From Aquila chrysaetos chrysaetos (taxonomy: Eukaryota; Chordata; Aves; Accipitriformes; Accipitridae), in NCBI RefSeq assembly GCF_900496995.4, contig NC_044019.1, positions 4,189,501-4,253,500 on the forward strand: 64,000 nt of DNA, in the 5' to 3' direction. How positions within the stretch are numbered: position 1 is the stretch's first letter; every line of letters begins with the position of its first letter. The notes below the pieces were generated by a model. It worked only from the letters and a program-made list of their open reading frames with translations. It had not been told where the DNA came from and ran no database searches. Made by a program: the position numbers and the translations under genes. This document shows, one piece after another, positions 37,201-42,800 of this stretch.

Positions 37201-38879
37201 TTTAATGCCGCCTTCCATTACACCACGAACGCTTTGACTTTAAAACAGGCCAGGGTTTCAGGCTATGGAAATGGGGCCATCAATTTAAACGAGGACAGGG
37301 TTTCTCTGCTCTTGCAACGTGCCACCCTGGAATGTGGAGTTACTGCGTGTACTCCGACATATGGAAAACCCATCCCTCTAGTGCAAAAAAGGTCGCTCCA
37401 AGTTTTTTATCCCTGCTACCAATTTATCACTATTTTTCTTATTTTCAGCTGGACACTCTCGCTGCCGGCAAAGGGGAAATCTGGGATAGCTTTTCCTGCT
37501 GGGTGAATTTTCTTGGTGGAAATCTTCCATGTCATTTCTCTATCACAAGGATTTCCTTTGATACAGGTGTGCCTGGGTGGGCCACACAGCGGATGTCTGG
37601 ATATTTAAAATTCTTCCTGAGCGCTGTAATCTGTAATCTCAAGAACCAGCAATGTAGAGCCAGGAGTTGTTGGTTCTGTTCTCCTCTGAGGAGGATTAGT
37701 TCCCAGCAGATGCCCTGAATTATTTCACCTTTTGTCTTCCATTCTTTTTCCTATCAAATAATTCATGTTTGTCATCTTTATATGGTTGCTGATGACACTG
37801 GAAATGGTTCAGATGTAAAATGAGCCCCTCTGCTTCTCGTCTAAATGGTGTCATCTTGGCTCTGCCAGCCACCCTGTCAGGTCTCCTTCTCTATCTAGCT
37901 GTCTGCAGGCTTTGTCATCTCATATCACCTCTTGCTCTTGCTCGTTTCCCAGACACCCAAGTACATTTATCCTGTTTCAAAGCTATCTCGTCCTGTTACA
38001 TTTTGTGCTCTGAAGGTACTTGCTAGGTTATTTGAGGTAAGCAACAGCTCTCCACACCTCAGTGCCCAACCTAATGAGTCTGGGAAGTTTTAAAGCACAT
38101 CTGCTTAAAGTGCTTGAGTGCTTAACTCATTCACACCTGTCTCTGCTCCCAGACATTATTTCAATGCTCTGTTAATTCCTCCCATCTCCTTCCCATGGCC
38201 CAAGCACCAGTTCTTTGATGGATGAGGAGGTGGAGAGCAAAGAGCTGTGGCAGAGTTTCGTGAACGTTTTCTTCTACGGTGGATCTGGCAGAAGGAACCT
38301 TCTCCTTCCTCCCTTGGCCATGCAGATGTAACAACGCTGATCTGAGTTACAAATAACCCAGTGTTTATTCGGTTGCTGGGCTCCCCAGTCCGGTCCACTG
38401 TGGTGCCCAAGCTTGCACCCCCACTGCAAAAGAAACGTCAAGGGCTATGTAGAGATCTATGGCAGAGAGAGGAACAGTGCCCAAGTCCCAGGGAGAAGGC
38501 TGTGCCTCCCCTTCACTGCCTGAGTCCTGCTCCCTCCAGTCTTGCTTGTTTGGTCTGCAAGAAAATGCACAGTGTGATTTTTTTATCTTGTCCCAGGATC
38601 GCTCAAAACTCCATGCACTCCGCTCCTGCTCTGCCCAGGTTTACCGGCCTCTTCCTCCTTCCTTGATGCAGCTGCCACTACGCTCTTAATGGCTTGGACA
38701 TGCTCTCCTCATCTCCAACCAAAACGCTCTTAAACCTAAAACAAAAATGATTAGGCAGGCTTAGGAAACAGCAAAAGCTTCAAAGGATTAAATGCTAACG
38801 CTTCCTGCTGCCCTTAGAGAGATCAAACATTCTGTGCTGTTAGCCCTGCAGCAGCAGAAAATGGTACTAAATCTTCCCC
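34222..38879. other. Gene-free interval between MAN1C1 and SELENON
   Basis: About 4.7 kb with short frames only and no spliced coding pattern on either strand. Further AATAAA-like words occur (for example near 35118), so a longer MAN1C1 3' UTR is possible. A run of eight to ten G sits near 37149. I recognise no transposon, RNA gene or CpG island here. Confidence 0.6.
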
Positions 38880-38899
38880 AGCAATCAGGGGATTTCAGT

Positions 38900-39150
38900 G
38901 GCAGTGCAGGATTGCATGTAAGGAGGAGCAGGAGACTGATTTATGAGGAAAGATTAAAATGACTAAATATATATCTCTTGGCCAAGCCACTGCTAAGGAG
39001 CAATGTGACAACCATGCAGAAGAACCTGAAGGGCACAAAGAACACAGGGAGGGTGGAAAAGTTTGGGGTGTCCTAAAGGATCGTAGAAACGACTCAAAAC
39101 GTGGGGTGGCGGTAGCAACGACTCGAAATTTGGGGATCATGATGTGGTAG
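38900..39150 (+). repeat. Old CR1/L3-like LINE 3' fragment
   Basis: The wording 'tttatgaggaaagattaaaa', 'ctcttggccaagcc', 'tgtgacaaccatgcag', 'aacctgaagggcac' and 'aacacagggagggtgg' follows the order of the C-terminal ORF2 coding region of CR1/L3 elements (YEERLK, then SLAK, then NLKG). It is interrupted by stops and is older than the 31.3-kb CR1. It abuts the SELENON promoter region. Confidence 0.55.
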
Positions 39151-39274
39151 AGGAGGCGGAGGCTCAGTGATGGCTGCGGGCGAGCACCTCGTGGCTGCAA
39201 AGTCATTCCCATCCCTGCAATCCTGGGGGCCTAAACCCCGGTGAAATCGCTGCAAGTGAAACCGCTAATATGTT

Positions 39275-39412
39275 TTTTTTAAAAAAAAAAAAAAAAAATC
39301 CATTTTGGTGAGCTGAAACCAAGTAGAAAAGCAGGATACGGCTCTTCTGGGGAAACGCTGAATTGAGGGCCAAAGACCACTTTGGAAATCCGGGGGGGGG
39401 GGGGGGGGGGGA
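39275..39412. repeat. Poly-A and poly-G homopolymer runs
   Basis: A T run followed by about 18 A lies at 39275-39298, and an uninterrupted run of about 22 G at 39391-39412. Both are just upstream of the SELENON CpG island. The G run can form quadruplexes, and its length is likely unreliable in an assembly. Confidence 0.8.
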
Positions 39413-39569
39413 AGGACGCGCCACTCCCCCATCGATAATTAAAAGCAAAAAGCACGGAAAGCAATGAGATTGCTGAAGAGAAGGGTGATTAATTTCCTCC
39501 AACGGTCCTCGCAGCGGATAAATTTAAGGCCAAAAAGGGGGGTTTCCTCCGGACTGCAGAAAGGTCTCT

Positions 39570-39650
39570 GCGGGGCCCGGAGGGGGGGAGAGGGGCCGGA
39601 CGGGGGCCTCCGGCCCCCGTCCGGCCCCTCTCCCCCCCTCCGGGCCCCGC
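39570..39650. repeat. Perfect 39-bp inverted repeat with 3-nt spacer
   Basis: The left arm 39570-39608 is the exact reverse complement of the right arm 39612-39650, separated by TCC. I checked it base by base; pairing stops at 39569/39651. It is over 90% G+C and lies 116-196 bases before the SELENON ATG. In RNA or single-stranded DNA it would form a very stable hairpin. It may be real (promoter or 5' UTR element) or a fold-back artefact of sequencing. Confidence 0.9.
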
Positions 39651-39733
39651 GGGGAGGACTCAGGCCCCCGCCCGGCCCCGGCCCCTCCTCGCCGGGCGCT
39701 GCCCGCCTGACGCCTCCCCCGGCCGGCGCGGCC

Positions 39734-39754
39734 ATGGCGGCGCGGCGGCGCTGA
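39734..39754 (+). other. Short upstream ORF before SELENON
   Basis: ATG in a good context (GCCATGG) opens a six-codon frame, MAARRR, that ends in TGA at 39752-39754, 11 bases before the SELENON ATG and out of frame with it. If transcription starts upstream, this could lower initiation at the main start. Confidence 0.45.
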
Positions 39755-39765
39755 ACGAGACGGGT

Positions 39766-39873
39766 ATGGCGGGTCCCGGCGCGGCCCCTCCGCGCCTGGC
39801 TTTGGCCCTGGCCGCTTTGGCAGCGTTTGTCGCCGTTAAGTACTACCGGGACGCTGAGGCAACCCGGCAGCAG
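39766..39873 (+). CDS. SELENON: SELENON exon 1
   Basis: 36 codons from ATG to CAG|GTAACG. Reads [18 protein letters not shown], then [18 protein letters not shown]. It holds the signal-anchor helix, with charged residues just after it. GC-rich; phase 0 at the donor. Confidence 0.9.
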
Positions 39874-42800
39874 GTAACGGGAAGGGTGAGAGGTGGCGGG
39901 GGAAACAAGAGGGCGGGGGGGGGGGGAAGGCGGTCCTGAGGCCGCGGTGCCCCTCACAGAGGGAGGGATGAAATGGCGGGCGGACCCGATCGCGCCGCCG
40001 TCGTGGGGATCGGGGAGGGGGGGGGTGCCGCGGGGCTGAGGGGAACGCGGGCGTTGAGGTGGCCACCGGGGGTTGAGGTGGCCGCTGCTGGGCTGAGGGG
40101 ACCCCCGCACATAGGTGGGCACTGGGATTGAGGTGACTGTGGTCGGGCTTGAGGTGAGCGCCAGGCATCGGTGGGCACTGGGATTGAGGTGGCCACAGGG
40201 GCTGAGATAGCTGCCACCGGGCTGAGGTGACCGCCAGGCATCGGTGGCGACTGGGTTGAGGGAGCCATCACCAGGCTGAGGTGACCACAGAGCTGCGGTG
40301 GCTGCCATGGGGTTGTGCTGGCCGGGGCGCGTTGATGGCTGCAGTCTTGAGGTGGCTGCCGGAGTTGAGGTGGCCACCGCCGGGCTGTGGTGACCATGAA
40401 GCCATGGCAGCCGCTGCTAGGCTGTGGGGACAAACGGGTTATCAGCAGCTGTGGAGCTTGAGGTGGCCACCGCCAGGCTGAGGTGGCCATCACCAGGCTG
40501 AGGTGACCATTGAGCTACGGTACTCACCACACACAAGTGGCTATGGGCTTGAGGTGGCCACTGCCACGCTGAGGTTTTGCAGAGCTGTGGTGGCCACGGG
40601 GATTGTGGTGGCCGCCACGGGGATTGTGGTGGCGGCCACGGGGATTGTGGTGGCCACCACAATCACAGAGCTGTGGTGGCCACCAGGCACCGGCAGTGGC
40701 CGTGCCTTCGAGGCTAGCTGCCCCCGCCAGAAGAAGGAGGAAGAGCAGGAGCACCAGACCTGGCCCTGCTCTTGGCATAACGCTTCGCTCCTCCTCTCGA
40801 TATGGCCTCTGAAGGTGTCTTTCCTTCCTGCTTTATTCCCTGTAATAAAAAAGGCCCCAAACTCTCAGATGTTTGTGGATTTTTTTCATACTAGAAATGC
40901 AGGTCTTGTGTGCCCTGATTGTAGAAGCAGCAAAGGAGTGGAGGATGTGAGCTGAAAAATGGGAAGGCTTTTTAGGGGCTTTGTTGTGTTTTGTTTTTTC
41001 TTTAAATTAGGCTGATTGGCGTTGGTTTTGATTGTAATCTGTATAATTCAAATGGCTGCTGCATGCTTTGGAGAAAGCGTGCCTTTGTTAAAGATCGTAC
41101 TCCCCTGGCTCTTCACTTGGGCGTGCATCCTTGAACATCTAAAAAGGTTCACGGGAAAGAGCAGGCGTCTTGTTCTTTATATTTCTATGGTAAAAAGACA
41201 AGCGTTTTTAAATGATGCCTCTTTTCTTTGTCTCTTCTTGCATTGCAAAAAGGGGAGAATGGCTCAAACCAGTTAATTAGAATTCCTCTGACAGGGGCAG
41301 AAGGGTCAGGGCAGTCCTTCACAGGCTGGCTGAGAGGACCTCAGCCCTGCTTGACAAAAAGCCAGGTCTTCTGGAGGTTTTGTGTTTCCTAGAGGACAGG
41401 CAGACGGCTGTGACTGGGCATTGCTGGAGAGGAGAACAAAATGTGAACAGCCCAAGGTTTTTATTTTTCCTTCATCTTGCTTAAAACATATGTCTTGTCT
41501 CTTTCTATGGAAATGTTTATTTAGCTAAACAACCCACAAGCAGGTGGGAGAAGAAAACTCTTTGTGAAAACCACAACTCTCTTCCTCTACAAAAAGACTG
41601 AAAAAGCTCAGTCTTACTGCTCTGGCACAAACAGGGAAACTTTTTATTTCTTATAATCCCAGATTAGAAAGAAAAAGAAAAAAACACAAGCTCTGGAGAG
41701 CTTTCTTTAACATGAATGTTATCGGGAAGCAAAGGGCAAAGCCCTGACATCTCTCTCCCCTTTTAAACATAATTTTTATCATCCCTTTTGACTGAGTGCA
41801 GCAAGACGGGTGCGTGCTCTGCAGAAGTCTTTGTTCCTCCATGGTTGGGGTCTTATCTCCAGCTGGGTGGGTCCCTGGGGTCCCAGTGGCGAGGATGTGC
41901 ACAGGGGCTCGCACGATGCTGCTGCTGAGCTGCCGTGCTTTGTGAGCGTAGAAATGAATGTTTCCAGAGGGAGCGATCTGTCCTGCAGGGTTGTGCAGAA
42001 CTGATGCGCTGTGCCAGTACTGCCTGGAGCACGCCTTTGCTGGAGAAGTGGCTGTTTTAACCTGCACTGGGGAGGGCAGCGTTGTCTGGAGGAGACAGGA
42101 GCTGGGTACCAAACCTACCAGCAGGGAGGCTGCATTCAGCTGGCTGCTGGCACGTGTGTGAGATGAGTGTGCGTCCACGTAAGTTGCCTGACCGCAAAGC
42201 TACCACATCTCTGGCCAATTGCGGTTGTAGGAATAATTATCTGATGGCTCTGCAGCTGATGGTTTTTTATTGCTTGACCTACGTGAAAGTGCAGGCTGAG
42301 GGGATGGGAGCGTGCTCTCAGTTCTTGTCTGTAGATTGACTTTTGGATGCTAATGTCCAACACCAGGCACCTGTATTCCCCCCTTCGTGTTCTCCTGTCT
42401 TAGACGCAGTCAGAGGTGTTCTTCTGTATGTGTGGGGTATAACTGGTTCCCTTTCTGCCTTCAGCCCTGTTCAGTAAATGATCACGACTTTTTCCTAATA
42501 CTAAGCAGCAGGCGGTCTAACCAACTAAAAACTTTGTCGCTCATTTGCCTCCCATCCCTTGAGGTCCGTGTCTGTGAAGTGCAAAAAGAAGAGAGACTCT
42601 AAAAGATTCATCAGCAGGGAATCGCTGATGCGCTGTGGAGAGGACTAGGAAATGGACCATCTCTTCAGAGCTCAGTACGCATCCAGGACAGCCTCCTCGG
42701 CAGAGGGGGAAGCCATCGAGCGCTCCCGGCACGCTTCCCTGCGCCATGAGCCGGCTCCCAGACAGTGAGCGATCACAGGGGCCCTTACGAGGTTAATGCA

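Follow-up and report, generated by a model that had tools for sequence, protein, structure and literature searches.

Template switching has been described as a way in which perfect hairpins arise, and a perfect inverted copy adjacent to its source as its footprint (PMC8794818). In yeast, template switches that perfect palindromes have been described in GC-rich genes when polymerase delta is weakened (PMC8191807). The great-ape template switches described in PMC7954356 have a median length of 12 and a maximum of 128, and they are enriched in AT-rich sequence. Perfect inverted repeats across eukaryotic genomes are reported as mostly AT-rich, with a steep fall as G+C increases (PMC13155455). A GC-rich class would be unusual because of this fall, and it can be either a real genome feature or an artefact of sequencing GC-rich DNA. 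Among the matches listed from open-licence PMC papers, we found no description of a SELENON element or of a class of GC-rich CpG-island hairpins in birds. What is new here is a recurring class of GC-rich hairpins of roughly 45 bp in the golden eagle genome.

The DNA analysed here (the window, 64,000 nucleotides) comes from chromosome 16 of the golden eagle assembly bAquChr1.4 (contig C16, 4189501-4253500). The gene 3' of the hairpin is presumably SELENON, named by its likeness to the human protein in exon 1, which is read from 39766, and in a further stretch from 44367. The probable coding part of exon 1 was placed at 39766..39873 on the plus strand by reading the sequence. When a SELENON exon was compared with Pfam, only EF-hand matches below the cut-off were obtained, and the comparison with NCBIfam gave no match.

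The G-rich left arm (39570-39608, 39 bp) and the C-rich right arm (39612-39650), both given on the plus strand, are exact reverse complements separated by the 3-nt loop TCC (39609..39611). The direct sequence check thus agreed base for base with the initial annotation, which had described perfect 39-bp arms around a TCC spacer. Its other figures needed small corrections. The hairpin is GC-rich as claimed, and its G+C is 89% over 81 nt rather than over 90%. The start codon does lie just downstream, at 39766, and 115 bases rather than 116 separate it from the hairpin. A long G run is indeed found nearby, and its 20 G occupy 39392-39411, upstream of the hairpin, instead of starting at 39391. By pattern match, G-quadruplex-like runs are on the plus strand in the left arm and on the minus strand in the right arm. 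Aligning the arms extended the stem to 39565..39655 with 42 of 44 pairs, and both mismatches are within the outermost five pairs, which may lie beyond the copied stretch.

The stem is far longer than expected from base composition. Among the perfect hairpins of the window with loops of up to 60 nt it is the longest, and the runner-up has arms of 15 bp. Dinucleotide shuffles (2000 trials each) gave a longest perfect arm of 14 bp for 39460-39860 (401 bases) and of 18 bp for the GC-rich part at 39565-39760 (196 bases). The predicted RNA fold of 91 nt is one single stem with an energy of -117.5 kcal/mol (z -12.3), and the single-stranded DNA also folds into one stem (-66.6 kcal/mol). The view of the initial annotation that such a length is out of the ordinary was therefore supported by both shuffles and folding, and chance pairing was rejected for the 39-bp stem by the shuffles.

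The hairpin lies where a CpG-island-like stretch (39565..40100), seen in the G+C and CpG profiles, has its upstream edge. G+C climbs here from about 0.5 to more than 0.75, and the 401 bp around the hairpin have a G+C of 0.71 and a CpG observed/expected ratio of 0.86. A C-rich stretch at 39663..39697 on the plus strand is similar to the right arm in direct orientation (score 16 versus a null mean of 12.1, p 0.04, one of eight tests). Judged by this similarity, it gives a weak hint that the right arm may be the native one. Comparing arms with flanks at the second hairpin described below, upstream of UBTF, gave no sign of a native arm. Downstream of the hairpin and ahead of the SELENON start codon there is a six-codon upstream frame, ATG GCG GCG CGG CGG CGC TGA (MAARRR, 39734-39754). 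Intron 1 starts (40170-40660) with diverged tandem repeats, each about 20 bp long and built around GAGGTGGCC, and these units also form short hairpins of 12-14 bp.

The genome surveyed is one assembly of 1.2337 Gb in 144 contigs, and all nine hairpins described in this work are from it. Besides its own locus, the SELENON hairpin matched one other place in the genome, on contig C8, and these counts are lower bounds. The C8 place is a perfect hairpin (40 of 40 pairs) with the loop GGA, about 2.5 kb upstream of a minus-strand coding sequence. We take this coding sequence to be the start of UBTF. A further exon at the locus matches the solved HMG box of UBF1 (1.1e-28), and an HCO3- transporter gene of the same orientation lies in the neighbouring 10 kb. 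The stretch upstream of UBTF (L003, 1-3075) is rich in G or C runs of 8-20 bases and also has purine runs. A third place that resembles the UBTF region (L007) is without a long hairpin.

The SELENON and UBTF hairpins have the run GGAGAGGGGCCGG in common, at the same position within the arm. This would be expected if a mobile fold-back element or MITE had inserted at both places. The arm sequences are otherwise unlike, and no family of copies was detected (two other places, the counts being lower bounds). In the five hairpins checked, the abutting target-site repeats were only 0-2 nt. An insertion of this kind is very improbable, and we rejected a fold-back transposon or MITE on the lack of a target-site duplication above 2 nt in these five hairpins and of a copy family.

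The genome was then surveyed with GC-rich words that are followed downstream by their inverted complement. The word GGGGCCGG followed by its complement at a distance of 10-40 bases occurs at 333 places, 50 of them among the matches listed, and two of its first eight loci in order have long hairpins (L030 and L032). Two further G-first word pairs occur at 155 places (50 matches listed) and 22 places (all listed), and a C-first word pair occurs at 68 places (50 matches listed). Twenty further stretches of 401 bases were picked by eye from the listed matches, mostly for extra pairing, and they yielded L037, L038, L043, L048 and L052. The remaining listed places were assessed from the matched letters alone. 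Among the matches listed, long hairpins thus amount to at least 2 of 50, 3 of 50, 3 of 22 and 1 of 50 in the four overlapping sets.

The best gapped hairpin per 401 bases was scored at 30 loci with 100 dinucleotide shuffles each. Nine loci scored 37-56 (L032, L030, L043, L052, L048, L038, UBTF, SELENON and L037). The other 21 scored 29 or less, and the shuffles never exceeded 29. The SELENON hairpin is thus not unique; at least eight more of the same build are present in the golden eagle genome. These scores also bear on chance pairing in low-complexity GC-rich DNA. G-rich DNA beside C-rich DNA favours pairing, and most of the listed word-pair places extend by just 0-2 further pairs, which also fits chance. 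Shuffles that stop at 29 when nine loci reach 37-56, and a longest perfect arm of 18 in 2000 GC-rich shuffles, leave this explanation with almost no probability.

The nine hairpins have arms of 38-56 bp and loops of 0-11 nt. Four of them are perfect: UBTF (40/40 pairs over 40 columns, loop 3 nt), L030 (43/43 over 43 columns, loop 11 nt), L032 (56/56 over 56 columns, loop AA of 2 nt) and L052 (44/44 over 44 columns, loop 4 nt). The other five contain differences. SELENON (42/44 over 44 columns, loop 3 nt) differs near the outer end only. The differences are inside the arms in L037 (36/38 over 38 columns, loop 0 nt) and L043 (47/50 over 50 columns, loop 0 nt), and L048 has one base gap inside the arms (46/47 over 47 columns, loop 1 nt). 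L038 (46/49 over 49 columns, loop 3 nt) has a change of G-run length inside the arms. In its stem of 47-49 bp (151-249) the two arms are unequal in G-run length and at one base, and it looks like an older or slipping member.

All nine hairpins are in CpG-rich DNA. Their 401-base stretches have a G+C of 0.69-0.83 and a CpG observed/expected ratio of 0.74-0.89. When the central 120 bases were removed, the values were 0.60-0.81 and 0.58-1.06, respectively. The search words are themselves GC-rich, which in part imposes this restriction to GC-rich DNA; other DNA was covered by 18 loci and the window. These sequence-blind loci of 10 kb each (bases 5,000,001-5,010,000 of contigs C1-C7, C9-C15 and C17-C20) showed no class-like hairpin in 864 tiles, with a best score of 24.5. 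SELENON was the sole outlier among the 318 tiles of the window.

The counts of word pairs were compared with controls as well. The inverted pair GGAGGGGG...CCCCCTCC, found at 155 places in the genome, is commoner than the non-inverted controls (about 105 a strand), and its C-first counterpart (68 places) is rarer than they are. The non-inverted controls with the same letters gave 104 and 102 (G-first) and 108 and 104 (C-first), and the excess of G-first inverted pairs has a Fisher p of 8e-7. The long hairpins among the matches listed (at least 3 of 50 G-first and at least 1 of 50 C-first) are too few to account for the G-first excess. A longer word gave 22 inverted pairs, 7 for the C-first control, 18 and 11 for the non-inverted controls and 10 and 12 for the reversed control (Fisher p 0.10). 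Inverted pairs in themselves are thus barely over-represented, and the long hairpins form a small separate tail. The inverted word-pair counts by themselves are no clean proof of the class.

In the first hairpins the G-rich arm invariably preceded the C-rich one, which suggested a general rule. This rule was dropped when the C-first search gave L052, a perfect hairpin of 44 bp. Several C-first matches on contigs C1, C6, C8, C12 and C22 share letters like ATCCCACTGAGG beside a C run, and their sequence suggests an interspersed repeat present in several copies.

The SELENON-type hairpins are near-perfect inverted repeats with a short spacer and a length beyond chance, which is the pattern that marks a template switch. 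Our preferred reading is that the SELENON hairpin is a real chromosomal inverted duplication, that it belongs to a recurring class in CpG-island DNA, and that it was made by fold-back copying (probability about 0.6). On this reading, the polymerase would stall in G-rich or C-rich promoter DNA, and the new strand would fold back on itself or switch to the opposite strand, leaving a loop of 0-11 nt. About 45 nt would be copied in reverse before the strand returns to its proper template, so that one step could produce a perfect hairpin. Substitutions and changes in G-run length would later decay it. The golden eagle assembly itself shows the hairpins, their recurrence, sizes and CpG-rich setting and the arm differences in part of the class; that they were made by copying, in which direction and when, is what we infer from it.

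Several results support the fold-back reading. The perfect 39-bp arms are far beyond the shuffles, and eight like hairpins exist elsewhere. The differences within the arms of L037, L038, L043 and L048 fit with ageing after a perfect start. A third copy was sought in the 1 kb flanks of four hairpins, and the longest shared word was 7-13 nt. A small inverted triplication was rejected, as no third direct copy was found in these four. The lack of a third copy, together with the lack of a target-site repeat above 2 nt, was counted for fold-back copying. The great-ape template switches described in PMC7954356 count against it, since they are short and lie in AT-rich surroundings, which is the opposite setting. 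The provenance of every case from a single assembly, and the weak sign of a native arm at SELENON with none at UBTF, also weigh against it.

The same hairpins could also be produced in sequencing or assembly, if fold-back of the single-molecule polymerase or in the consensus step put an inverted copy into most reads at one and the same position of a GC-rich site. All nine cases are from one PacBio CLR assembly made by Falcon-unzip, arrow and two rounds of 10X polishing (PMC8499043), and all nine are within GC-rich DNA, which is difficult to sequence. Long reads obtained after whole-genome amplification are known to contain artificial palindromes, as described in PMC6218980, and the published perfect inverted repeats of eukaryotes are mostly AT-rich according to PMC13155455. 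The methods text, however, mentions no whole-genome amplification and gives a coverage of 46-fold (PMC8499043). The arms here are about 45 bp with unrelated flanks rather than palindromes as long as the molecule, and in four of the nine hairpins the arms contain internal differences. Because of the short arms, the unrelated flanks and these within-arm differences, we regard an artefact as unlikely. The initial annotation had placed it on an equal footing with a genuine hairpin, and we rate it lower, given also the mismatches or length changes in several hairpins.

A further explanation is that a promoter or 5' UTR hairpin is a selected regulatory element (a cruciform, a G-quadruplex pair or dsRNA), whose perfection is kept by selection or by repeated palindrome correction. 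The position at the edge of a CpG island upstream of SELENON, the similar stem upstream of UBTF, the extreme stability (-117.5 kcal/mol for RNA and -66.6 kcal/mol for DNA) and the G-quadruplex-like runs in both arms agree with such a role. Loops and arm sequences nevertheless vary between loci, and the arm differences in some members speak against strict upkeep. There is no conserved sequence family either: the genome search found two other places, one of them without a long hairpin (lower-bound counts). No Rfam family reached its cut-off in the region 38500-41000 of the window (24 matches at E <=1). The best match, mir-641, had 41.3 of 100 bits, and a microRNA precursor of a known family was rejected since the curated cut-off was not reached. 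Taken together, a selected element appears quite improbable.

If the hairpin arose by fold-back copying, an influence on SELENON would probably be incidental, and a purpose-built switch is less likely than a copying scar. The hairpin should hinder scanning ribosomes only if it is inside the SELENON mRNA, and then strongly. Therefore a transcription start of SELENON downstream of the hairpin would be more likely.

A wider proposal is more doubtful, with a probability well below one half. The golden eagle, and perhaps birds at large, may have a distinct mutational class, with approximately hundreds of GC-rich CpG-island hairpins of roughly 45 bp made by fold-back synthesis; "hundreds" is an extrapolation from the listed places and not a count. 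The narrow range of arm length might then trace back to a fixed step in replication or meiotic repair, which CpG islands attract in birds without PRDM9. If this is true, a single step would be enough to equip a promoter with a complete hairpin and a pair of G-quadruplexes. A real class would mean sudden large structural change at gene starts, missed by point-mutation models, and the even arm length would offer a handle on the copying mechanism. An artefact would instead point to systematic errors where genes start, in a widely used type of long-read assembly. Existing reads could decide between the two.

The eagle hairpins can be compared with three known systems. The first is the small inverted triplication linked to FEN1/rad27 (PMC13334657). 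Fold-back of a 3' flap followed by return to the template, one of the routes proposed there, resembles the copying suggested here. The triplication described in that paper has a duplicate/inverse/duplicate arrangement of about 148/160/148 bp with a spacer of about 30, whereas the eagle hairpins have loops of 0-11 nt and no third copy in the four checked. The second system is the short-range template switches, including those of great apes (PMC8794818, PMC7954356). As described in these papers, they resemble the eagle hairpins in an adjacent near-perfect inverted copy with a small loop, which a single copying event would explain, and in mismatches presumably gained later. The great-ape switches have AT-rich surroundings and a median length of 12 (maximum 128) in PMC7954356, whereas the eagle arms are 38-56 bp and lie in CpG-rich DNA. 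The third system is the correction of quasi-palindromes in yeast, in which, as described in PMC8191807, switching at GC-rich inverted repeats also leads to a perfect palindrome. The yeast correction adds two bases to an imperfect palindrome already present, whereas the eagle match covers complete arms of about 45 bp.
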